From positions 1 through 33,416 of the forward strand of contig JAPPOR010000505.1 of assembly GCA_028817905.1 (NCBI GenBank): a DNA stretch of 33,416 nt, given 5' to 3'. Below, piece after piece: positions 6,976 through 27,932 of the stretch. Both the position numbers and the translations under genes were made by a program. The notes beneath the pieces were generated by a model. That model was not told where the DNA came from. It saw only the letters and a list, made by a program, of their open reading frames with translations, and made no database searches. This DNA is from Myxococcales bacterium (GTDB lineage: Bacteria; Myxococcota_A; Polyangia; Polyangiales; JAFGIB01). Within the stretch, counting starts at the first letter, position 1, and each line of letters begins with the position of its first letter.

Positions 6976-7025
6976 GGAAAGGGCCCGCGTCCTTTCCCGG
7001 ATGGACACTAGCTAAGCTAGCTAGT
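6976..7025. terminator. Two adjacent hairpins between minus-strand genes
   Basis: ACTAGCTA-AGC-TAGCTAGT at 7007-7025 is a perfect 8-bp stem that includes the ATPase stop codon. GGAAAGG-N8-CCTTTCC at 6976-6997 is a perfect 7-bp stem. Both sit just 3' of the ATPase gene and before the next minus-strand gene, as expected for termination or mRNA 3'-end protection. No U-run follows, so intrinsic termination is uncertain. Confidence 0.4.
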
Positions 7026-8325
7026 CCTGCTCGAGCAGCCAGCGCCAGGCGGGTACGACGTCGGCTCGCCCGGACTGGAGTTGAATCGTCTCCTCCGCGC
7101 TCAGCGTCACGAGCGTGGCCGAGGTCACGCCAAGCTCCTGCATCGCGGCCTCGAGCGCACGCAGCTCGCGCTTGCGGGTGTCCTGAGAAGTGATGTCCGC
7201 GCTCACCTGGACCAGCTCAACCTGGCCGCTTTTCTGTACGACGAAGTCAACCTCGGTGCCAGCATCGTCGCGATAGTAGCCGAGTGCATCGGTCTTGCGC
7301 CGCAAGTGCAAGAAGACGACGGTTTCCAGCAGCTGACCGATGCCGCGCCCTGGCAGCGACGAGCAGGCGGTTACCACGCCCGGGTCGATCGGGTAGACCT
7401 TGCGTGGATTGCTCTGCCGGCGTCGCTCCGACGCCGTGTGAATCGCCATGGGAAACAGCAGATAGGCATCGTGCAGGTGATCCAGGTACCCGTGCAGTGC
7501 ATCCTTGCTAACGGATATTCCCTGCGAGCGCAGGTCGCCGTATAGGCGGTGCACGCTGACCAACCCCGCTGGCGCGTTGATCAGTTGCCGAATCATACGC
7601 CTCAGGGCGCTCACGTTTGTGACACCGTGGCGTTCCACCACGTCGCGGAGGATGACCGCATCCAGATACTCCTGGAGAACGCGAACGCGCATGGGCTCTT
7701 GCATGCCGAGCACCTCTGGGAAGCCACCACGCTCGAGGTAGCGGCCCAGCTCGTGCTCGATGCGGGAGCGGAGCGCCTTGCCAGGTCGAAGGCCTCCAGC
7801 CGGCAACTCGACACCGAAGTGTTCCAGATGCTCCCGAAAGCTGAACGGAAATACCTCGGTCGGCAGCGAGCGGCCACGCAGCGCGGTCTCCAGCTCTCGA
7901 CTCAGCAACTTCGCACTCGAGCCCGAGACCACGACGTGGATGTCTTCGGTGTCGAGCAGCCGGCGTACGAAGCGCTCCCAGCCAGGCACTACCTGAATCT
8001 CGTCCAAGAAGAACGCACACTCACGAGCCCGCAACTCCGGGTGCCGTTGGTAGAAGACGTCCACGATCAAGTGCAGCTCCTCGCGACCCATCTCCCATAG
8101 ACGCTCGTCCTCGAAGTTCAGGTACAAGAGCGCCTCGCGCGGGTAGCCATCCGCCAGCCGGTCCTGCATCAGTTGCCGCATCCGCGTCGTCTTGCCTGCC
8201 CGCCGCATCCCGACTAGCGCGTCCGCCTTGCCAGGCAGCCACGGGACACGAGTCCGGCGCCGGGTGGTTTCGGCAAAGGCCCGCTCCTGGTCGTCCGCGA
8301 TGAGCTGCTCAATCAGCGCCCGCAT
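7021..8325 (-). CDS. AAA+ ATPase with C-terminal DUF4143 nuclease-fold domain
   Basis: This 434-residue protein is of the common AAA_14/DUF4143 family. Walker A is GMRRAGKTT (residues 39-47), Walker B is FFLDEIQ (105-111), and the sensor region is VVVSGSSAKLLSRE followed by LRGRSLPTEVFPFSFREHL, all diagnostic. A winged-helix-like segment follows (about 225-290). The C-terminal domain has GTEVDFV (356-362) and E370-LVQVS, the positions of the acidic pair and E-x-(K/Q) of PD-(D/E)XK folds; here the usual lysine is replaced by Gln, so nuclease activity is doubtful. Biological roles in this family are largely undefined; it is abundant in accessory regions. The gene is monocistronic, with an AT-rich palindrome over its start codon. 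Confidence 0.9.
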   Translation of the reverse strand: MRALIEQLIADDQERAFAETTRRRTRVPWLPGKADALVGMRRAGKTTRMRQLMQDRLADGYPREALLYLNFEDERLWEMGREELHLIVDVFYQRHPELRARECAFFLDEIQVVPGWERFVRRLLDTEDIHVVVSGSSAKLLSRELETALRGRSLPTEVFPFSFREHLEHFGVELPAGGLRPGKALRSRIEHELGRYLERGGFPEVLGMQEPMRVRVLQEYLDAVILRDVVERHGVTNVSALRRMIRQLINAPAGLVSVHRLYGDLRSQGISVSKDALHGYLDHLHDAYLLFPMAIHTASERRRQSNPRKVYPIDPGVVTACSSLPGRGIGQLLETVVFLHLRRKTDALGYYRDDAGTEVDFVVQKSGQVELVQVSADITSQDTRKRELRALEAAMQELGVTSATLVTLSAEETIQLQSGRADVVPAWRWLLEQD

Positions 8326-12043: not shown

Positions 12044-13603
12044 ATGGCTACGCCCCAAGAAAAATTGGCGGAGTCTCTCGATGCGCTCAAGAGACTGCAA
12101 GAGCACGGACTGATCGCCATTCGTAGTACCGACCTGACGCGCGTGCAGCGCGAGCGCCTTAGCAGTGCGGGCTTTCTGCGAGAAGTGATGAAGGGCTGGT
12201 ATGTCGCCGCGCGCCCCGATGAAGACGCCGGCGAAAGCACCTCCTGGTACACGTCGTTCTGGGCCTTTTGCGCCCAGTACCTGAGGGCTCGCTTTGGCGA
12301 CGATTGGTGCCTGGCGCCCGAGCAATCGCTTTCGGTGTTGGCGGGCAACCGGACGGTACCCCGCCAGCTCGTTTTCAGGGCGCCGGGAGCCGATAACAAG
12401 CCGACTTCCCTTCCTTACAACACCTCGCTCTTCGGCATGCGCGCATCGTTGCCCGATGAGAGTGACACCGTCGTGCAGGATGGGCTCCGCATGTTTTCCC
12501 TACCCGCTGCCTTGCTGGCCTGCTCATCGAGCTATTTCGAGCATCACCCGACCGACGCGCGCGCGGCGCTTTCGATGGTGCGCGACGCTTCCACAGTTCT
12601 CGAGCCGCTGCTGGCCGGTGGCCACAGCACGATTGCCGGTCGCCTGGCCGGCGCGTTCAGAGACATCGGGCGCGATCGGATCGCGGTTGACATCGTTGCG
12701 ACGATGCAGGCCGCTGGCTACTCCGTGCGGGAGTCGACCCCATTCGCTAGCCGGCTTAGCTTTCCCACAACAGGCTCGCGGACAAGCTCGCCGCACGTTG
12801 CGCGCATTCGCCTGATGTGGGCTGCGATGCGCGGAAAGGTTCCAGATCAGTTCCCGGACGCGCCTGGCTTGCCGGACGATTCCGGCCGCTACCTGCAAGC
12901 CGTCGCGGACGCCTACGTGACCGACGCGTACCACTCGTTGTCGATCGAGGGGTATCGGGTCAGCCCGCAGCTGATCGAACGGGTCCGCAGCGGGGACTGG
13001 AAGCCCGACACGGAAGCCGCCGACCGCAACCAGCGGGACGCTCTCGCCGCGCGAGGCTACTTCCAAGCCTATCAAGCAGTCCGAGACAGCCTGCGCCGAG
13101 TGCTGGGTGGAGACCACCCCGGATTGGTTGCGGACGAGGACCACGGTATCTGGTACCGCCAGATGTTCGCGCCGAGCGTCCATGCCGGCCTCATCGAAGC
13201 GCGCGACCTCGCAGGATACCGAAACGCCCCTGTGTACATTCGCCGCTCCAAACACGTTCCGCCAAGCCCAGAGGCTGTACGCGATGCACTGCCCGCGCTC
13301 TATGAGCTGCTCGCCGAAGAGCCTGACCCGGCGGTGCGAGTCGTGCTGGGTCATTTCGTGTTCGTCTACATTCACCCGTACATGGATGGCAACGGTCGCA
13401 TGGGCCGCTTCGTCATGAACCTCATGCTGGCAGGAGGCGGCTACCCATGGACAGTCGTCCCGCTGGAACGTCGCGACACGTACATGCAAGCGCTGGAGTC
13501 CGCGAGCGCCGACCAGGACATCGTCCCCTTCGCGCGGTTTGTCGGTGAACTCGTCGCCGCTGCGATGGAAGGCCACTCCATCGCGCACCCACCCATCCGC
13601 TGA
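12044..13603 (+). CDS. Fic-domain AMPylase-like protein with N-terminal winged-helix domain
   Basis: The protein has 519 residues. The N-terminal region, about 1-60 (LIAIRSTDLTRVQRERLSSA then GFLREVMKGWYVA), resembles the AbiEi-type winged helix found in several antitoxins and regulators. Residues about 285-515 are a Fic domain: HPYMDGNGRMGR at 444-455 fits HxFx(D/E)GNGRxxR, with Tyr replacing Phe. SLSIEG at 298-303 fits the inhibitory (S/T)xxxE(G/N) helix placed N-terminal to the Fic core, which blocks ATP binding in cis in class II enzymes. Fic proteins transfer AMP (or another phosphate-containing group) to hydroxyl side chains of target proteins; the target is unknown. No ribosome binding site is obvious. 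The combination of DNA-binding-like domain and self-inhibited Fic suggests an autoregulated single-gene toxin-antitoxin-like unit. Confidence 0.9.
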   Translation: MATPQEKLAESLDALKRLQEHGLIAIRSTDLTRVQRERLSSAGFLREVMKGWYVAARPDEDAGESTSWYTSFWAFCAQYLRARFGDDWCLAPEQSLSVLAGNRTVPRQLVFRAPGADNKPTSLPYNTSLFGMRASLPDESDTVVQDGLRMFSLPAALLACSSSYFEHHPTDARAALSMVRDASTVLEPLLAGGHSTIAGRLAGAFRDIGRDRIAVDIVATMQAAGYSVRESTPFASRLSFPTTGSRTSSPHVARIRLMWAAMRGKVPDQFPDAPGLPDDSGRYLQAVADAYVTDAYHSLSIEGYRVSPQLIERVRSGDWKPDTEAADRNQRDALAARGYFQAYQAVRDSLRRVLGGDHPGLVADEDHGIWYRQMFAPSVHAGLIEARDLAGYRNAPVYIRRSKHVPPSPEAVRDALPALYELLAEEPDPAVRVVLGHFVFVYIHPYMDGNGRMGRFVMNLMLAGGGYPWTVVPLERRDTYMQALESASADQDIVPFARFVGELVAAAMEGHSIAHPPIR

Positions 13604-17379: not shown

Positions 17380-17497
17380 CCGCCCCACGGGGTCTCAGAC
17401 GCGGACGGACATGGACTGCAACTGCATGAAAATACGCTTGTTTTCGGCACGCCCGGCTTGACGCTGAGTGCGCTGAATGGTCATGGTTGGACGCGAA

Positions 17498-17520
17498 AGG
17501 TTGCCCCAGAGGTTGCCCCA
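17498..17520. repeat. Tandem AGGTTGCCCCA repeats beside the integrase gene
   Basis: Two 11-bp copies at 17498-17508 and 17510-17520 have a 12-bp period. They lie between the att core and the integrase start, where arm-type integrase or excisionase sites are expected. Confidence 0.5.
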
Positions 17521-17546
17521 AACCTCACCGCAGTCGGTCGCGATCC

Positions 17547-18914
17547 ATGCCCCAGTACAAACGCTCTCCCCACCCAGGCGTCGTCCTCGCCAAGCGCACC
17601 AGGAAACGCGACGGCGTGATCACCGTCACCTGGCGCGCACGCTACAGGGACCCCGACACGCTGCTCATGGTCTGGGAGACCCTGGAGCCCACGCTCTCGA
17701 ACGCGACCGCCCGAAAGACCTGGGCCAAGCAGAAGTCCGAAGCGCTCTCGAGGCGACGTGCCGAGCTCGCCAGCGGTGCCCCGATCAAGACCCACACCCC
17801 GATCGAGAACGCCACCGACGACTTCATCACGTCCTGCAAGCACCGCCTGCGCACGTCGACCGTGACCCACTACGGCCACGGGTGCACCAAGTTCCGAGAC
17901 TGGGCCGTGCGCCGCGGCATCCACTTCACCGAATCACTGACCCCGCCCGAGCTGGTCGCATACCGGGAGCATGTCATCTCGGAACGCCGACGGGCCCCAA
18001 AGGCCGGCGGCACCCGCGGTACTCGCGCGACCACCGGCGAAAAACGCTCCCCCGAGTCGACCAACACGTACCTGCGCACGACCGAGACCCTACTCCTCCA
18101 CTGGCGCTCGCTCGGCTTGACCCCCACACTCCACCGCGACGACATCTCCGAATCGCTCAAGCCCCTACGAGCACGACGAGAGCCGGCCGAGTTCCTGCGG
18201 ACCCCGGATCTCCAGCTCCTGTTGTTAGCATCCGTTAAGCAGTACACCGCGATGTACACCGAGACACGCGACGAGCACGCCGGGCGTCGACCCCTCGGCA
18301 CGACCCCCAAGCACACCCCGATCGCCCCCTTCGTCGCCTTCATGCTGCTCTCCGGCTGCCGGCGTTCAGAAGGCCTGAGCCTCCGATGGCCGCTGGTACA
18401 ACTGAACGCAACCGACCGCGAGGGCCGCACAGTCGGCGAGATACGCCTGCCAGCAGAGATCCCCAAGACCCACCAAGCGCGAACGATCGGCCTCGAGGTC
18501 TCCCCCGGCCTGCACCGCCTCCTCAGCACCATCAAACCCACGACAGCCCGCTCCATGGGCCATCTGTTCTGCGGACACCAACCCTACACCGTCGACCTCG
18601 TCGAAACCGCACGCGCCCGCTTGATGGCCGAATACGGCGCCCCCAAGTTTTCCTGGCAAGTGCTGCGTTCCACCTGCGCCACCTTTCTGACCAACGCCCC
18701 CGGGATCTGGGGCGCCGCCACCGTGTTCCTCAGCGCCCGGCAGCTCGGACACAGTGTGGCCGTCGCCGAGAAGCACTACCTCGGTGAACACCGAGGCGTC
18801 CCCCGGGAGGCGCGCACGCTGGAAGCCGCGATGGGGATCGATGCGCAGCTTGAGGCGGTGACCGCTGCCGCTCGGCCATCGTCCCAGGCGTTGCGCCTGG
18901 TCACGAGTCAGTAG
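17547..18914 (+). CDS. Tyrosine recombinase (island integrase)
   Basis: The 455-residue protein from ATG 17547 begins MPQYKRSPHPGVVLAKRTRK; the upstream TTG-started frame would translate the repeat region and is not used. An N-terminal SAM-like core-binding domain spans about residues 85-185. The catalytic domain shows SGCRRSEGLSLRW (Arg272), a beta-hairpin lysine in IPKTHQARTIGL (Lys307), WQVLRSTCATFL (Arg374), LGHS (His402) and the nucleophile in KHYL (Tyr411). The histidine usually at the H-x-L-R position is Gln371. It would catalyse site-specific integration and excision at the tRNA-Pro 3' end. It reads from the left att site into the island. The gene appears intact. Confidence 0.93.
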   Translation: MPQYKRSPHPGVVLAKRTRKRDGVITVTWRARYRDPDTLLMVWETLEPTLSNATARKTWAKQKSEALSRRRAELASGAPIKTHTPIENATDDFITSCKHRLRTSTVTHYGHGCTKFRDWAVRRGIHFTESLTPPELVAYREHVISERRRAPKAGGTRGTRATTGEKRSPESTNTYLRTTETLLLHWRSLGLTPTLHRDDISESLKPLRARREPAEFLRTPDLQLLLLASVKQYTAMYTETRDEHAGRRPLGTTPKHTPIAPFVAFMLLSGCRRSEGLSLRWPLVQLNATDREGRTVGEIRLPAEIPKTHQARTIGLEVSPGLHRLLSTIKPTTARSMGHLFCGHQPYTVDLVETARARLMAEYGAPKFSWQVLRSTCATFLTNAPGIWGAATVFLSARQLGHSVAVAEKHYLGEHRGVPREARTLEAAMGIDAQLEAVTAAARPSSQALRLVTSQ

Positions 18915-19825: not shown

Positions 19826-22800
19826 TCATCCCGGTGCCACGCCAATACCAAGCACCTCGACCAGCTCGGCGATGACAGTCATCTCCCCGTCCTGCAAGTC
19901 CTCAAGGACGATTGGCTGATAGGTCGGGTCGGTCGAATCAGGCTTCAAGACGACCCGAGAGTGCTTCCACGAGCCCTCCCCGTCTGCTTCCTTCTCGCTC
20001 TCGTAGACCTTTACCGTGTACGTTCCGCCGTGCTCGGGGTCTTGAATGTCTCGGTGCTGGGCAAGGACCACCTTCCCCTGCCGCGTGCCGCCCGGATGCA
20101 ACCGCCACAGGCACCAGGCGCCGTTGGGGATCCGGCGGTTCATCGATTCCCCCACGACTTGAGCGACGAACAAGGACTCGGACGGCTTGCGGCCGCCGCC
20201 GAGCTCCGCCCAATCGTAGTCGGCCTCGTCAACTGATTGCACTGGCGAGAAGCCGCCCGCGGCGGCCTTCAGCTCGAGCAAAGGCACGCAGTTATGGTAC
20301 GGCTTGGCGACTTCGCGCTCGAGTCGTCGAAAGGGAAGAATGGTCGCTGCGATGGGAATGTTGACGTCGAAGTCGACGGCTACGTTGGACCGGTAGATCT
20401 CCGCCGCGGTCTTCTGGTCGTGCAGCACAGCCAGGCGTACTGCTTCGTCCTTCAAGTCGAGGACTCTCATGCGTCCGTCGATCTCGGCCAGGGCCTCGAT
20501 GCGGTGGAACGCACGTCCGAACTCCTCGGCGTACTTCGCGAGGGCCTTGAGTTTCATCGGCGCGTCGTCGAGGTGATGTCCATGTGGGTCGAGGATGGAC
20601 GCGACGACCTTTCCACTGACCTCGTGGAAGAACACGAAGTCGGGGTGCATGGACCGCCAGTTCCCGGTATCGTCGTCCCGGTAGGCAACTCCGAGCGAAT
20701 CGACCGCAGCTCGAGACGGGTTGCGGTACCAGCCACACACGTTGGGGCGTGCGAGTTCGGCCCGCACCACATCTCGCTCCCAACTGTTAAGCGACGTCAA
20801 TGGGAACTGCCCGTCGTCGTCCGCCATCAGATGTAGCGGCGCTAGTGGCGCCGGGACGATCTCGTCGCCTTCTTCAACCGAGAAGCCCTCGACGCGGGTT
20901 CTGGGAGGCCGGAGGACCCCGATTTGCGGGTCGGTAGCCATCGCGCGGATGTCCTCGTACTCTTGCTGGCGCGCGTCGGGAAGCCCCATGAGGGCTACCC
21001 GGTTCTCGGCGAACAGACGGTCGGTCAGCTCGAGGGCCTCACGGTCCACTTTGTCGCGCGCTTCCTTGACGGTGGCGAGGGCGGCGGCCTTCACGTACGC
21101 CTCACGCAGCCCGTCGTCATCGGCATCCTCCTCGTCGGGACCCGCCAGGCGGTTCACGTACGATTGTGCGACATCGGCGCCGAAGGCTTTCTTCGCTGCC
21201 TCGAACCCCGAACGGATAGCACGGTCATCCGCCCGCTCGACGAACTCTGCATACGTCAGACCCGCCTTGCCGAAGCGTCCTGCGATTTGCTTGACATGAA
21301 CGTCCCACACTTCCTGAATAGCTGCATCCAGCTTGTCCTCGTACCGTTTGGCATAGGCCTCGAGAATGAGGTGCAGCTCGTTCTCCACTCTGTGCAACGC
21401 GCCCAGCGACACACCGTCCGCCGATAGCGCCTGGGCCAGCGCGACCAGCCGCTTCACCGGCCGGGCTCCACGCTGCGGAAGGGTCTGCGTGGGAAGAGAC
21501 GCCCATACGTCCCAAACGTCATCAGATACGTTGGGATTGGGTAGCAGCTCCTTGCCATCGAGCACTGCCTTCTTTTCGCCGCCCGGCATGGCTTCCAGAT
21601 CGCCGGTCAAGTAACGGACCACCTTCACGGCGGTAGCTCGGTCGAAGAACGGCAGGATGCAGTCGACCGCGTTTAGCCGCTCATCGCCTGGGATGCGACG
21701 AGCCAGCGGGTTGCGGACCATGCGTCCGAGAAGCTGGGTGATGTGAGTGTTGTCCTTGGCGGGCCGAAACGAGACCAGCACCTCGGCGCGAGGGCAATCC
21801 CAGCCCGTCGAGATCGCGTCCTTGGCGATCAAGACGCGCACCTCCGGTGTTTCCTGCACGCGTTGAGGTTCGATCCATCTCACCTCCCATGCACCGTAGG
21901 TCTGCGTGGAGCGCTCGCCCAGCACGTGCCTGACCGCGGTAGCGCGCAAGTCCGGATATTCTGCGACGATGGTATCGAGCGCCACGCCGACGTCATCGGG
22001 GTTGGGCGTGTTCGGCGTTTGGAGCACAAGAAGGGGCTGAACGGGATCCCGGAGTCCTTGGGAGCTGGCGTATTCGGACCAGCGAGCCGTCGCCTCCCTT
22101 AGCTTGCGCGAAGCTCGGCGCACCAGGACGGAGTCGAAGTTGCCGACCTCGTCGGGAATGTCCAGAACAAGGGTGTCCTTGACGAGGCCGGATTCCTGCA
22201 CCCGGACGGGGTCGACCACAACCGCCTGCAGAATGCGTCGGTTCCCGGCGATCTCAGCTTCCTTCATCGCCGCCTCAAAGCGGGCGCTGGTCGCCGAAAT
22301 GCCCCACACGATGGGGATAGGTGGCCGCTGGCGCGTCCCGTTGATAAGACGGCGAACGATGGTTGGCTTGTCGCGGGTGGCCTTGCTGTTGAAACCGCGG
22401 TGCGCCTCGTCAAGCACAAAGTAGAGCGTGAGGTCCTCGGCTTCGACCGTGTTGGCGAGCGTCTGCCAGATGGTCCATCCTTGCATGTCGGGCGCGGCAG
22501 CCGTGATCGCGGGCATCTGCTCTTGAGGCCCACTAACAGGCTCAACGTGCCCGCGGGTCAGAAGGGAACTCTTGGTCAGCTTCTGTGTGTTCAGAAAGTA
22601 GACCTTGCCGGGATCGAGCCGTGGCTTGGCGAATGGCGGCTCGATTTGCACCAGGTTCGAGTACGTGAACTTCTCGGAGGCCTGGCGCAGACGGTTGAAG
22701 GTCTGCATGTTCAGGCTCGGATCATCGGAGAACCAGATGACCACAGCGCCAGGGTCTGGATCGAAGTCAAAGGCCTCGTTGCCCCAGAAGAGCGCCTCAA

Positions 22801-22966
22801 TCGCTGCCGCGGCCATCACCGTCTTGCCAGCGCCAGTGGTGGCCGTGAGCGAGAAGGCCGAGAGCTCCCGCTTACCTGGGTTCTTGAAATTGTCGCGGGC
22901 CCGCCGGAGATTGGAGAGGACGTCGTCTACGGCATCGGCCTGGTAGTCCTTGAGCGTGAACCTCAC
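19826..22966 (-). CDS. Type III restriction Res subunit with C-terminal S24 (LexA-like) peptidase domain
   Basis: The 1046-residue protein is an SF2 helicase-nuclease. Walker A is TATTGAGKT (41-49), DEAH is at 186-189, SAT at 224-226, and helicase motifs V-VI are DAISTGWDCPRAEVLVSFRP and QLLGRMVRNP. A nuclease-like region follows with HPDF (774-777) and SILDPHGHHLDDA (about 790-802), the PD-x-(D/E)xK-like site of this Res family. Beyond it lies an extra domain: FVAQVVGESMNRRIPNGAWC (Ser941 in G-E-S-M-N) and GTYTVKVYE (Lys986). These are the Ser and Lys positions of LexA/UmuD/phage-repressor S24 peptidases. The ATG overlaps the stop of the mod gene by 4 bp. It would translocate on and cleave unmodified DNA with Mod; the S24 domain suggests self-cleavage or damage-responsive control. 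Confidence 0.92.
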   Translation of the reverse strand: MRFTLKDYQADAVDDVLSNLRRARDNFKNPGKRELSAFSLTATTGAGKTVMAAAAIEALFWGNEAFDFDPDPGAVVIWFSDDPSLNMQTFNRLRQASEKFTYSNLVQIEPPFAKPRLDPGKVYFLNTQKLTKSSLLTRGHVEPVSGPQEQMPAITAAAPDMQGWTIWQTLANTVEAEDLTLYFVLDEAHRGFNSKATRDKPTIVRRLINGTRQRPPIPIVWGISATSARFEAAMKEAEIAGNRRILQAVVVDPVRVQESGLVKDTLVLDIPDEVGNFDSVLVRRASRKLREATARWSEYASSQGLRDPVQPLLVLQTPNTPNPDDVGVALDTIVAEYPDLRATAVRHVLGERSTQTYGAWEVRWIEPQRVQETPEVRVLIAKDAISTGWDCPRAEVLVSFRPAKDNTHITQLLGRMVRNPLARRIPGDERLNAVDCILPFFDRATAVKVVRYLTGDLEAMPGGEKKAVLDGKELLPNPNVSDDVWDVWASLPTQTLPQRGARPVKRLVALAQALSADGVSLGALHRVENELHLILEAYAKRYEDKLDAAIQEVWDVHVKQIAGRFGKAGLTYAEFVERADDRAIRSGFEAAKKAFGADVAQSYVNRLAGPDEEDADDDGLREAYVKAAALATVKEARDKVDREALELTDRLFAENRVALMGLPDARQQEYEDIRAMATDPQIGVLRPPRTRVEGFSVEEGDEIVPAPLAPLHLMADDDGQFPLTSLNSWERDVVRAELARPNVCGWYRNPSRAAVDSLGVAYRDDDTGNWRSMHPDFVFFHEVSGKVVASILDPHGHHLDDAPMKLKALAKYAEEFGRAFHRIEALAEIDGRMRVLDLKDEAVRLAVLHDQKTAAEIYRSNVAVDFDVNIPIAATILPFRRLEREVAKPYHNCVPLLELKAAAGGFSPVQSVDEADYDWAELGGGRKPSESLFVAQVVGESMNRRIPNGAWCLWRLHPGGTRQGKVVLAQHRDIQDPEHGGTYTVKVYESEKEADGEGSWKHSRVVLKPDSTDPTYQPIVLEDLQDGEMTVIAELVEVLGIGVAPG

Positions 22967-25110
22967 GGGGCACCTCGACCGGATTCGATCTCGAAGTTCC
23001 GGAGGTACGCCTCGTAGAGGCGAACTGGCTCGACGTGATCGGGAAGCTTCTGCGCGACGGACTCGAACAGGCGGTCTTCGTCCGTGACAATGTACGCAAT
23101 GGACAGTTCGTTCGCGGCAATGACTTTCTTCAAGAAGGCCTTAGTTCGGTCGAGGTTGGCCAGCACCCCGTAGGTATCGGCAACATCCCAGCCATCAGCA
23201 ATGCTCTCGATACGACGGCCGCGTGCGCCGGCTCGTAGCCAAAGCAGGGGTGCGATCTTCTTGAACTCGCGGTGCGAGGCGACCCGGAGCGGCGCCTCAT
23301 AGGTGAGGGTGAAGAACTCGACGTTCGCTTCAAGCCCCTCGGCGATCGGAAACTCGTCGGTGAACTTGTAGTCGCCCTTGACCGAAACACCTTCCGGAGT
23401 CTTGCCGGTCACGGCCGCTGCTATTCGCGGCTTCGTAATGTATTCGCAAATCCCACACGACTCCCAATCCGTGTCGCCCGGGCGAAAGCGCCTCTTTCGG
23501 AGCACTTGCTGTTCGTCCGCCGCAACCTCGTTGTTTGTCACGGATATGCATTGGCGGCGCCCCGTGTCCTGGCGATTCAAACGCATCACCGCGTGTGTGG
23601 TGGTGCCAGAACCGGCGAAGAAGTCGAGGATGACCGCTGCGGGCTTGTCCTTGAGAAAGAAGCGGAGCGAGTCTTCGACCGCGTAAAGGGACTTCGGGAA
23701 CGGGAAGCTGCGTTCCGGAACCAGGGCCCTTAACATGCTCGTTCCGTAGGCGCCAGCGTCGTGGGCCTTCTCGCGCCAGACGGTAGTTGGTCGCGAAACC
23801 TTGCCACCAGGCATTACCACGATCTTGGAACCATCGCTTCTTTCACCAGTGACCTTGTACCGACCAGACGTGATGTTCTTTGCGACGCCCCTGAGGTACT
23901 TGATCGTCCACGGCTGCTCTGCGTTCGTACCCGCAGTGACTCGGACAAACCCATCCCGGTCCGCCTGCCGGAGCGACGGAGCAGTCAACCCCCACACCAT
24001 TTCTGTCCCGTCGGCCTTTACGGGGTAAACCGCAGTACAGCCGTGGCGGTGCGGCTCAGTCCCTCGGTTGGCGCCCGGTGGCAGGGGTTCGCCGACCAAC
24101 TCGATGCGGCCCGAATCAGTACCAACGTAGATCGGGAAGAATTGATTCGGACGGCCGGAGGCTCGCGTGCTCGTCCGCTCGTCACGCCGCAGGTACTGCC
24201 ATCGAGCCTCGACAGCCTCGCCGGCTGCTCCGTCGTCTAGCGCGAGCTGCACTTGGCCGATGAACGCCACGAAGACGTACTCATCCACGCGGGAGAACTC
24301 GTTGGCTCGGCTCGTCCCTCGCGGACTTATCGTGATGCTGATCATTTGTACGCGCGCCGCGGGGAAGATCTGCTCGAGTAGTAGACCCAGGCGCAAGTAC
24401 TCCTTTTCGTCGACTGTGACGATCAGCACTGAATCATCCGGGTTCAGGAGTTCCCTTGCCAAGAGCAGGCGTCGCTCCATAAATGCAAGCCACTTCGAAT
24501 GGCGGTAGAGGTCGTCGGCCTCCACGTAGTTGTTGTTGTACTTCCAGTCCTTGGCGCCCGTGTTGTACGGGGGGTCGATGTAGATGGCGTCGACGCTGCC
24601 GCGATGCGTGAACAGCAACGTCTCCAGGGCGTGATAGTTCTCTGCGTTGATCACAGTGTGGAACGGCTTGTCACCACCGCGCGCCACTTTGCCGGTGGAG
24701 ACCAGGCCCGGGTAGATCGGGTCACGGAACTCGGCGACCACGACTAGGTCCTCAAGGGACGCCAACGTTGCGTTCCCGTCGGGCAAGCTTGCCTGCCCAT
24801 CGACATCTCCGGAACCAACCGCCGCGAGCGGCTCCAAGGTCGCCCGCCCTGTGGACCGATCGATGCCAACGACCCGCCACAGCTTCTCGTCCGACTTCTT
24901 GGGCGTCTGGCCTCGGGGCGGCAGAACGCGGACCTTGTCGCCCTTGCGGACCTTGCGCCCAGGCAGCTCGACTGCCTCCGGAACGTGACGCTCGAAATTT
25001 AGGCCGAAAGCGCGTCGCTCCGACAGGGCGTTCACCTCGCGTTCGAGATCACGGGCTAGTGCGGGTTCCCTGGCTCGAAGCTCGCGGAGTAGGTCACTTA
25101 TCCGGGACAC
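22963..25110 (-). CDS. Type III-like N6-adenine DNA methyltransferase (Mod)
   Basis: The 715-residue protein starts at ATG 25110 (MSRISDLLRELRAREPALAR). An N-terminal helical and beta region (1-130) precedes VINAENYHAL, then the catalytic DPPYNTG at 179-185. The target-recognition region spans about 255-460, and the S-adenosylmethionine-binding FAGSGTT is at 498-504. DPPY before FxGxG is the beta-class order of type III Mod proteins. The C-terminal 150 residues (EANVEFFTLTYEAPLRV onwards) form an extra domain also seen in large Mod homologues. Mod provides sequence recognition and protects host DNA; with the overlapping Res gene it forms the restriction complex. No frameshift or phase-variable repeat is seen. 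Confidence 0.93.
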   Translation of the reverse strand: MSRISDLLRELRAREPALARDLEREVNALSERRAFGLNFERHVPEAVELPGRKVRKGDKVRVLPPRGQTPKKSDEKLWRVVGIDRSTGRATLEPLAAVGSGDVDGQASLPDGNATLASLEDLVVVAEFRDPIYPGLVSTGKVARGGDKPFHTVINAENYHALETLLFTHRGSVDAIYIDPPYNTGAKDWKYNNNYVEADDLYRHSKWLAFMERRLLLARELLNPDDSVLIVTVDEKEYLRLGLLLEQIFPAARVQMISITISPRGTSRANEFSRVDEYVFVAFIGQVQLALDDGAAGEAVEARWQYLRRDERTSTRASGRPNQFFPIYVGTDSGRIELVGEPLPPGANRGTEPHRHGCTAVYPVKADGTEMVWGLTAPSLRQADRDGFVRVTAGTNAEQPWTIKYLRGVAKNITSGRYKVTGERSDGSKIVVMPGGKVSRPTTVWREKAHDAGAYGTSMLRALVPERSFPFPKSLYAVEDSLRFFLKDKPAAVILDFFAGSGTTTHAVMRLNRQDTGRRQCISVTNNEVAADEQQVLRKRRFRPGDTDWESCGICEYITKPRIAAAVTGKTPEGVSVKGDYKFTDEFPIAEGLEANVEFFTLTYEAPLRVASHREFKKIAPLLWLRAGARGRRIESIADGWDVADTYGVLANLDRTKAFLKKVIAANELSIAYIVTDEDRLFESVAQKLPDHVEPVRLYEAYLRNFEIESGRGAP

Positions 25111-25151: not shown

Positions 25152-25164
25152 TAAAATGCAGTGG
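25152..25164 (+). promoter_or_regulatory. Possible -10 box for leaderless helicase-nuclease mRNA
   Basis: TAAAAT at 25152-25157 is 5 of 6 to the sigma70 -10 and is 6 nt before GTG 25164. No ribosome binding site is visible. Transcription from here would start at the start codon. The -35 is not convincing. The 50-bp gap also holds the mod promoter. Confidence 0.3.
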
Positions 25165-27932
25165 TGACGGCCTACACCGACGCGCAGGCGGAGGCGATCG
25201 CATGCCTCGACAGGCCCCTGCAGGTGATCGCCTGTGCAGGGTCCGGCAAGACTCAGGTCATCTCGCAGCGGATTGCGGGCATGCTGGCTCAGCCAGAGAC
25301 ATCGCCCGCAAACGTAATCGCATTCACATTTACCGAAAAGGCTGCTGCCGAGCTGAAGGAGCGCGTCCTGTCCATCGTGGCGCGCGAGCTGGGCGACGTC
25401 ACCGGGCTGGCGGAGATGTACATCGGCACGATGCACGGGTACTGCCTGGACCTGCTCCAGCGGCTCGTGCCCGACAAGTTCAAGTTCTCCGTGCTCACAG
25501 ACGTCACGGCGCAGTTGTTGGTGGACCGGTACAGTGGCCAGTCGGGGCTGACGAGTTGTCCCACCAGCGCGAGGCCAGGGGTGCTACGTCGCTACGTCAA
25601 CTCGAAGCTGTACCTGCAGGTACTTAGCGTGCTGCGGGAAGACAAGGTCGACTTCCGTCAGGTCGCGGCCGGTGTCATTGAGGCCTTCGAGAAGTACCGC
25701 ACGCTACTGCATGAGAAGTCCGTATTCGACTACACGGCGATCATCCGAAACGCGGTCGATTACCTGGAAGGTGACCCGTACGAAGACGACGATTTCGCCC
25801 GGGTCCAGGAACACGTCCGCGACGATATCCGCTACGTCGTGGTCGACGAGTACCAGGACGTAAATGCGCTACAAGAGCGCCTCATTCGGGGGCTGGTCAG
25901 CGCAGGAGCCAACCTGTGCGTCGTCGGCGACGACGACCAAACGATCTATCAGTGGCGCGGGAGCCAGGTGTCGAACATCGTCGCCTTCGCGAAGCGGTAC
26001 CCCAATGTTCAGCAGGTGACCCTCGACCAGAACTTCCGCTCAAGCCGGGGTGTTGTAGAAGTTGGCCGGTCCGTGGCCGAACGGATAGCCGCGAGCGATC
26101 GCCTTCCCAAGGCGATGGTCGCCTCCGGGCACCAGTCCTGGGAGCGAGGCGACCTGTTGGCTCTGACGTTCGACGACCCGACCGCAGAAGCAGCCTGGAT
26201 TGCAGACCGAATCGAACACCTACGGGGGATACCGTTCAGGGACCGCCCGGACGCCGAGCCTCGCGGACTGTCGTGGTCGGACTGCGCGGTTCTGTTTCGG
26301 TCCGTCGCCAAGGACTCGGAGCCGGTGGTCGATGAGCTGCGGCGTCGTGGGATCCCGTTCGTCGTGAAGGGACTGAACCGGCTCTTCGACAGTCCCGAGA
26401 TTCAGGCAGTTGTGGGCATCTTCCGCTTCATGGCCAGCGACATCGACGCCGCTTCATTGTTCGCACTCTGGGAGGTTGCCGAGCTGGTTCCGACCGGCGC
26501 GGACTGGACGAAGGCGATGACCGTTCTGGAGGTCGGGCGAGACTTCGACGCAAACAAGCGGCACGCTGTCTACAATATCCAACGCCTGTACCTGGACTTC
26601 CTTGAGGCGTTGGACATGCGCGAGGACACGTTGCCAGCCGATTCTGGTCGGGGTGAGCTCGTCTTCTACCAGCTCGGCAAGTTCAGCCAGGTGATCTCCG
26701 ACTACGAGCAGATCTACTTCACGGTGGCTCCTAAGTCGAAGTACAAGGGGTTTGCCAAGTGGCTTGAGCACCAGGCGCGGGACTACTACGCCGACGCAGA
26801 TGCCGACGTCGGCTACGCCGCCCCGGACGCCGTCACGATCGCGACGGTCCATCAGTCGAAGGGTCTACAGTGGCCGGTGGTGTTCCTACCTGCGCTGCGC
26901 AAAAACCGATTCCCGTCGCGCGTGATGGGTGGAGTTACGCTGCGCCACGTCATTCCGGATGAAGCGCTCGAAGAGCCCGATCGGTACCGTGGAACGGTCG
27001 AAGATGAGACGCGGCTGCTGTACGTGGCCGTCACTCGAGCGCAGAAGTACCTGTACGCCACGTTCGCCCCGGTAGAGACCAACAAGCAGCAGAAGAAGCG
27101 CTCACCCTTCTTCGACCACATCGCCGCCCAGCAGTGGGTCTCGACGGCTCCGGCGCCCATCGGCGGCGACCGGTTGGCGCCGCAGCCCCGTCAGGAGACT
27201 CCACAGGTCACCCTGTCGTTCTCTGAACTCAAGTACCTGTTCGAGTGCCCCTACCAGTTCAAGCTGCGCTTCCTGTACGGGTTCAACGCCCCCATTCAAG
27301 AGGCGCTCGGTTACGGAAAGGGACTCCACGACGCGCTGTCTGAGATCCACAAGCGCGCACTGGAGGGCGAGGTCGTCACCAAGGCTTCGGCAGCCGCGCT
27401 CATTGACCGGCATCTCAACGCACCCTTCGCCTATCCGGCCCTGTTTGACCAACTCCGAAAGGCTGGAATCAGGGCGATCGAGCGGTACTTCGACACCCAC
27501 GGCGACGAGATCGCCAACACGGAGTTCTCCGAGAAGCAGATTCAGGTCCATGTCGCCCCTGGCATCACCGTGGACGGCCGCATCGACTTGATTCGCCGGC
27601 TCGACACCGGCGAGGTCGCGATCGTCGACTTCAAGTCAAGCGAGCGCGCCCAGGCCGAGGATGTCACCCGCGATCAGCTACATGTCTACGCTGTCGGCTA
27701 CCACGAGCTGACCGGGCAGTCCGCCGACCTCATCGAGGTGCTGAATCTCGACGAGAAGGGCGAGACGACCCGCGAGGCGGTCGTCGCCCCCCTGCTGACT
27801 GCAGTCCGGGACAAGATCCGAACTGGCGGCGAAGGGCTGCGCAAGAACGAGCTTCCGCGGCTCGCAACGTGGGACAAGCACAAGTGCGGCTCATGCGACC
27901 TTGTTGCGCTTTGCCGTAAGCGGCCGCAATGA
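25161..27932 (+). CDS. UvrD/Rep-family helicase fused to a Cas4/AddB-like nuclease
   Basis: The 923-residue protein can start at tandem GTG codons 25161 or 25164. SF1A helicase motifs are complete: Q-motif region TDAQAEAI; Walker A ACAGSGKT (24-31); AFTFTEKAAAELKER; Walker B VVVDEYQD (to 233); GDDDQTIYQWRG (256-267); TIATVHQSKGLQWPVVFLPA; and RLLYVAVTRAQ. The C-terminal 230 residues carry a PD-(D/E)XK nuclease: FECPYQFKLRFLYGF, GRIDLIRR, VAIVDFKSS and Q-x-x-x-Y. C909-x2-C912-x5-C918, with the Cys in FECPYQF, matches the four-cysteine Fe-S cluster of AddB/Cas4 nucleases. It would unwind and degrade DNA ends. It is divergently transcribed from the mod-res operon and is probably part of the same defence locus, though a repair role is possible. 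Confidence 0.92.
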   Translation: MVTAYTDAQAEAIACLDRPLQVIACAGSGKTQVISQRIAGMLAQPETSPANVIAFTFTEKAAAELKERVLSIVARELGDVTGLAEMYIGTMHGYCLDLLQRLVPDKFKFSVLTDVTAQLLVDRYSGQSGLTSCPTSARPGVLRRYVNSKLYLQVLSVLREDKVDFRQVAAGVIEAFEKYRTLLHEKSVFDYTAIIRNAVDYLEGDPYEDDDFARVQEHVRDDIRYVVVDEYQDVNALQERLIRGLVSAGANLCVVGDDDQTIYQWRGSQVSNIVAFAKRYPNVQQVTLDQNFRSSRGVVEVGRSVAERIAASDRLPKAMVASGHQSWERGDLLALTFDDPTAEAAWIADRIEHLRGIPFRDRPDAEPRGLSWSDCAVLFRSVAKDSEPVVDELRRRGIPFVVKGLNRLFDSPEIQAVVGIFRFMASDIDAASLFALWEVAELVPTGADWTKAMTVLEVGRDFDANKRHAVYNIQRLYLDFLEALDMREDTLPADSGRGELVFYQLGKFSQVISDYEQIYFTVAPKSKYKGFAKWLEHQARDYYADADADVGYAAPDAVTIATVHQSKGLQWPVVFLPALRKNRFPSRVMGGVTLRHVIPDEALEEPDRYRGTVEDETRLLYVAVTRAQKYLYATFAPVETNKQQKKRSPFFDHIAAQQWVSTAPAPIGGDRLAPQPRQETPQVTLSFSELKYLFECPYQFKLRFLYGFNAPIQEALGYGKGLHDALSEIHKRALEGEVVTKASAAALIDRHLNAPFAYPALFDQLRKAGIRAIERYFDTHGDEIANTEFSEKQIQVHVAPGITVDGRIDLIRRLDTGEVAIVDFKSSERAQAEDVTRDQLHVYAVGYHELTGQSADLIEVLNLDEKGETTREAVVAPLLTAVRDKIRTGGEGLRKNELPRLATWDKHKCGSCDLVALCRKRPQ

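Follow-up and report, generated by a model that had tools for sequence, protein, structure and literature searches.

A LexA-type S24 peptidase domain on a Type III-like restriction subunit and on other defence enzymes: a possible self-cleaving off-switch

The S24 family (PF00717), with LexA, lambda CI and UmuD as its best known members, is characterised by a common fold, a Ser-Lys dyad and an Ala-Gly cleavage site, and in these proteins the peptidase is attached to a DNA-binding domain. When S24 proteins cleave themselves, degrons become accessible to ClpXP and to other proteases (PMC7101444). In Streptococcus mutans IrvR, which its authors regard as an exception, self-cleavage is constitutive and independent of RecA and is followed by degradation by ClpXP, and the cleaved protein is still functional unless its C-degron works (PMC7101444). 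What is known of how a host with damaged DNA is protected from its own restriction and nuclease defences concerns mainly Type I enzymes. In Escherichia coli, ClpXP removes the HsdR subunit of EcoKI during restriction alleviation; the degron of HsdR could not be identified, and the authors ask why alleviation has been unseen for other classes of restriction-modification enzymes (PMC4231737). Type III restriction-modification systems such as EcoP15I and EcoP1I are encoded by overlapping genes, the SF2 helicase Res adjoining an N6/N4 methyltransferase, Mod. Full-text searches of a collection of mainly open-access papers turned up no account of an S24 domain fused to a restriction or defence enzyme, and a 2025 review of restriction-modification mentions neither S24 nor LexA.

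The window analysed here is a stretch of 33,416 nucleotides from a Myxococcales bacterium. It contains on the minus strand an open reading frame of 1046 amino acids with a GTG start (19826-22966), the first 868 residues of which (20363..22966) make up a Type III-like Res core consisting of an SF2 helicase and a C-terminal PD-type nuclease-like domain. ResIII was matched by residues 3-195 in the Pfam protein scan (E 3.7e-11), and PADLOC assigned the core to REase_III. Comparison of the window protein with ten relatives (L002-L007, L185-L188) showed conservation of the SF2 helicase motifs I, II, III and VI, the Walker A sequence TGAGKT (residues 44-49, 22820..22837, minus strand) and the DEAH box of motif II (residues 186-189, 22400..22411, minus strand) being invariant in all 11 sequences. 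The nuclease-like motif HPDF...LDPH (residues 774-795, 20582..20647, minus strand) is non-canonical, with DxH for (D/E)xK. Where PD-(D/E)XK enzymes carry a lysine, the window protein has the histidine of Asp793-Pro-His795, and PD...DPH(G) is found in 11 of 11 sequences compared. The first-pass annotation had spoken of a complete helicase and nuclease core; the PD motif is indeed present, while the (D/E)xK element reads DPH in the window and in all ten relatives. From its sequence the protein is best described as a Type III-like restriction subunit with a putative nuclease activity, and even a motor without nuclease could be harmful to the host. The N-terminal helix-turn-helix DNA-binding domain of LexA and CI is absent, residues 1-868 being occupied by the ResIII-type core, so the protein is not a repressor.

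Directly upstream of Res lies the partner methyltransferase Mod (22963..25110, minus strand), the TGA stop codon of which shares four nucleotides (GTGA) with the GTG start of Res. It was recognised by Pfam as N6_N4_Mtase (E 3.5e-19) and matched the PADLOC model MTase_III PDLC03645 over its full length (E 9.4e-259). The pair is thus like EcoP15I and EcoP1I in having overlapping genes for an SF2 helicase Res and an N6/N4 Mod, and differs from them by the additional S24 domain, by DPH in place of (D/E)xK and by a Mod of 709 amino acids, which is of the long PDLC03645 type.

The C-terminal part of the Res protein had been likened to a LexA/S24 peptidase because of a GESMN and a TVK motif, and serine 941 and lysine 986 were both found at the positions given for them. 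The last approximately 155 residues are a genuine S24/LexA-type domain (residues 893-1046, 19829..20290, minus strand). It is connected to the core by a linker (residues 869-892, 20291..20362, minus strand) which has a low model confidence and is without counterpart in tail-less relatives. Peptidase_S24 matched residues 896-1034 with an E value of 1.2e-4 and 22.2 bits in the Pfam protein scan, marginally below the cut-off of 23.3, and the same tail reached 24.2 bits in a genome-wide scan, which is above it. A profile of the tail family compared with the PDB at E <= 0.01 yielded 13 matching sequences, all 13 of them LexA, and in the alignment with Mycobacterium tuberculosis LexA the predicted nucleophile Ser941 (VGESMN, 20144..20146, minus strand) and the predicted general base Lys986 (YTVK, 20009..20011, minus strand) fall on the serine of GDSM and the lysine of TVK. 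Another finding, absent from the first-pass annotation, was a canonical scissile pair, Ala903-Gly904 (LKAAA|GGF, 20255..20260, minus strand), which on the conservation of P1 and P1' in the tail family is the predicted site of self-cleavage. It is located 37 residues ahead of Ser941, and Ser941 is in turn 45 residues ahead of Lys986; the corresponding spacings are 37 and 43 in lambda CI, and 34 and 37 in E. coli LexA. The AlphaFold2 model of the tail had a mean pLDDT of 86.9 and a pTM of 0.82. Foldseek ranked the lambda CI repressor and LexA first, and VIA-align gave Z scores of 11.1 to LexA (7b5g and 3k2z) and 10.3 to RecA-bound LexA (8trg) and CI (8gmu), well above those of unrelated folds. 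Taken together, the alignment with the LexA dyad and the superposition of the confident model on LexA speak indirectly against a wide separation of Ser941 and Lys986. A model of the full-length protein was poor (pLDDT 61.8) and was set aside. As profile, fold and a strict conservation of Ser, Lys and Ala-Gly in 55 non-repressor relatives agree, a chance match to S24 was rejected and the assignment of the tail to S24/LexA is upheld.

Within this subfamily of Res proteins the S24 domain has been added on. The six nearest relatives of the core found in genomes, from records of Elusimicrobia, Mycobacterium, Planctomycetota, Arthrobacter, Myxococcales and Mycolicibacillus, match it at 66-78% identity across residues 1-860 but are only 870-877 amino acids long, so that in several phyla the protein stops at about residue 870. 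Among the matches listed for plasmid relatives, which number 47 records in all, the alignment ends by residue 880. An S24 domain as an ordinary feature of the subfamily was rejected on these grounds, and the claim that standard Res subunits lack it holds for this subfamily.

A search with the tail alone revealed a distinct S24 subfamily which is nearly always contained within a large protein. Matches above 100 bits occurred in 15 of 237 sampled genomes of the window's phylum, in 10 of 199 of the phylum of a Planctomycetota record and in 7 of 198 of the phylum of a Mycobacterium record; the remaining S24 matches in the latter two phyla were mostly frames of 200-400 amino acids which did not exceed 71 bits by the profile. 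Against its own profile the subfamily scores above 100 bits, LexA of other phyla mostly below 50. A single tail match was obtained from PLSDB; it is in Halomonas, in a frame overlapping the end of a gene for a Schlafen group 3 helicase. Phage records yielded weak matches only, and those with a named product were CI repressors. Cases which were broken or cut by a contig end (L017, L080, L091, L162, L169) or in which the S24 domain lies in an overlapping frame beside the enzyme (L027, a SLFN helicase; L088, PbeC) were not counted as clean fusions.

When the host enzymes were classified by Pfam and PADLOC, relatives of the tail were found on at least ten unrelated kinds of defence enzyme in several phyla. 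Type I HsdR subunits are represented by the HindI kind (e.g. L089, L092, L093, L156, L165, L167) and by a second kind (L096, L098, L101, L171), both with the S24 domain as a tail, and by the EcoEI kind (L159, L161), where it is inserted instead of being C-terminal as in the window Res. Further tails are carried by Type III Res proteins of other subfamilies (L157, L100, and L172 and L173, which adjoin their own Mod), Type ISP/IIG restriction-methylation enzymes (L082, E 0), Eco57I-type enzymes of 1.5 kaa (L155, L164, L166), Druantia DruE-like MZB helicases (L090, L154 and others), Schlafen group 3 helicases (L107), an OLD-family nuclease (L087), a ResIII/TnsA-like group (L104, L105), a SNF2 helicase (L168) and a HATPase_c_3 protein (L103). 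No stand-alone methyltransferase with the tail was among the classified hosts. The window Res thus has the tail subfamily and its catalytic residues in common with the S24-tailed HsdR, DruE, ISP/IIG, SLFN and OLD proteins, whereas the enzyme cores are unrelated; compared with LexA, CI and UmuD, it is the same peptidase fold in a distinct subfamily, now placed on a restriction motor and nuclease rather than on a DNA-binding domain. Two proteins of about 870-890 amino acids (L086:4425-7088, plus strand; L170:5102-7702, plus strand) have the S24 domain near residues 120-290, preceded by a possible zinc-binding stretch, and no clear Pfam match.

A tree of 57 tails did not follow the host enzymes, which are intermixed. 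The starred branches force at least three separate placements on Type III enzymes, at least five on HindI-type HsdR and at least three on DruE. The window's tail has its closest counterpart on a DruE-like protein (62% identity). Sister pairs are formed by one HsdR tail and a HATPase tail (100/99), and by another HsdR tail and a Type III Res tail (99/94). Because the tree mixes the host enzymes in this way, the S24 domain behaves as a mobile module which has been swapped repeatedly.

The first-pass annotation had suggested that self-cleavage might act as a switch of the restriction enzyme, and this idea is plausible from the sequences and is strengthened by the recurrence. The best explanation appears to be a modular S24 off-switch in which a self-cut stimulated by RecA is followed by loss of the enzyme through ClpXP, a reading which we hold to be on balance probable, if barely so, and in which we infer the cleavage, the trigger and the loss of activity. 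Where the chromosome of the cell itself is broken or gapped, or after self-restriction, RecA would be loaded on single-stranded DNA, and the RecA filament would stimulate the cut at Ala903-Gly904 as it does in LexA and CI. The enzyme part would then end in ...LKAAA and resemble cleaved LexA, whose ...VAA terminus ClpXP recognises, and the restriction subunit would be destroyed while the separate methyltransferase is spared. The host could then repair and re-methylate its DNA, which would amount to restriction alleviation built into the enzyme, and the S24 domain would have moved among many defence enzymes posing the same danger to their host. The machinery for a LexA-like outcome exists, since the genome of the window encodes two RecA proteins, a single ClpX and one further S24 protein, which has the size of LexA. 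The two RecA genes, a number that would be in keeping with Myxococcota, are located on contigs C827 and C760 (L176, L177). Residues P3-P1 are AAA in 30, IAA in 9 and VAA in 8 of 51 tails, together 47 of 51; the AA|G end is just as frequent in ordinary LexA proteins and repressors, so it is compatible with a LexA-type degron but does not specifically indicate that the enzymes have one. It speaks against an off-switch that the tail-less relatives show the core to be viable alone, so that a cut without degradation might leave an active enzyme.

The purpose proposed resembles that of the ClpXP-dependent alleviation of EcoKI, namely removal of the restriction subunit when the host DNA is damaged or unmodified, but EcoKI HsdR is without a known self-cleaving domain (PMC4231737), and in the window enzyme trigger and degron would be built in, and would reach beyond Type I. 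The recurrence on at least ten unrelated defence enzymes suggests, at the level of sequence, a mobile safety switch which disables the enzyme once the host DNA has suffered damage. If this is true, a transferable self-cleaving tail would directly answer the question of alleviation beyond Type I, SOS-coupled control of immunity would be testable by one point mutation (S941A), and a portable means of making defence enzymes safe would be at hand. The wider proposal, in which a single self-cleaving S24 subfamily is passed around horizontally and serves bacterial defence enzymes of the Type I, Type III, ISP/IIG, Druantia, Schlafen-type, OLD and other kinds as a general SOS off-switch, acting on the effector protein instead of on transcription and coupling immunity to the state of the host DNA, seems to us evenly poised.

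Cleavage could also work in the opposite direction, the S24 domain keeping the enzyme inactive until a RecA-stimulated cut during phage attack or DNA damage frees the active nuclease. UmuD, which is converted to active UmuD' by cleavage, is the model for such activation, single-stranded DNA and SOS do arise from phage replication, and after the cut the enzyme would resemble the widespread tail-less ones and could therefore be active. The EcoEI-type HsdR proteins speak for the other direction. In L159 (1999-4740, plus strand) and L161 (5656-8439, plus strand), and also in L160, the S24 domain is situated inside the HSDR_N nuclease domain; in L159 and L161 it separates the N-terminal helix of HSDR_N from the catalytic strands, the insert comprising residues 47-216 or thereabouts of L159 by reference to a tail-less relative which is 74.8% identical downstream and 60% identical over the first 40 residues. 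Self-cleavage there would cut through the nuclease domain rather than free it, which fits inactivation better than activation, and of the two directions offered in the first-pass annotation these sequences favour relief of restriction over release of a nuclease. In addition, an enzyme left with a ClpX-type C-terminus would tend to be lost, and restriction-modification enzymes tell DNA apart by methylation, which makes an SOS trigger unnecessary. Activation by cleavage is therefore regarded as unlikely. In the inserted form the -AAA end would land on a short peptide, so that for L159 and L161 the degron step of the proposed off-switch is not the whole story.

A little less probable still is that cleavage is constitutive, or signalled by something other than RecA, and simply sets a short lifetime of the enzyme with no sensing of damage. 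The RecA-independent cleavage of IrvR with its degradation by ClpXP is the precedent for this (PMC7101444), but the authors' own view of IrvR as an exception, and the fact that the nearest solved folds are those of the RecA-responsive LexA and CI, argue against it.

The C-terminal domains of S24 proteins generally serve for dimerisation, and the tail might likewise dimerise or tether the enzyme as in CI and LexA, self-cleavage being incidental or absent. A pure dimerisation module would be expected to lose Ser, Lys or Ala-Gly in some of its hosts, yet over many unrelated hosts few positions of the domain are as well conserved as these: in the 55 non-repressor rows the serine is present in 55 of 55, the lysine in 54 of the 54 rows with a letter, alanine at P1 in 53 of 54 and glycine at P1' in 52 of 54. 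The one deviation at P1 is a cysteine, as in UmuD. The two exceptions at P1', both threonine, can be read in favour of a structural use, which we nevertheless consider improbable. They belong to S24-tailed Res proteins of Type III Mod-Res pairs on viral contigs (L172:5295-8453, plus strand; L173:4923-8459, plus strand), which judging by this residue may be impaired in cleavage.

It has also to be considered that the tail, which resembles the domains of prophage CI-type repressors and sits on phage defence enzymes, senses anti-repressors or SOS manipulation aimed by phages at LexA/CI-type repressors and thereby triggers the defence enzyme, but this leaves the conservation of the cleavage site unexplained and is very doubtful. 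An assembly or annotation error that placed a fragment of a repressor behind Res in a chimeric contig is hardly credible and was rejected: the genome is a draft of 1110 contigs and this exact Res subfamily with the tail was seen only in the window, but the frame is uninterrupted by stops, GC (0.63) and GC3 (0.78) are equal in core and tail and so give no hint of chimerism or of recent fusion to foreign DNA, and in-frame fusions of the tail family, both to other Type III Res proteins (L100, L157, L172, L173) and to numerous further enzymes, occur in independent genomes as well as in viral contigs.

In the surroundings of the Mod-Res pair, a protein of 923 amino acids with a UvrD-type helicase and a C-terminal PDDEXK_1 nuclease is encoded divergently from Mod (25161-27932, plus strand) and is similar to helicase-nucleases of the GajB/RecB type. 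Farther away are genes for an AAA_14/DUF4143 protein (7021-8325, minus strand; PADLOC candidate PDC-S01), for a Fic-domain protein (12044-13603, plus strand) and for a protein with a weak phage-integrase match (17487-18914, plus strand), and with these the region looks like a mobile or defence-rich one.
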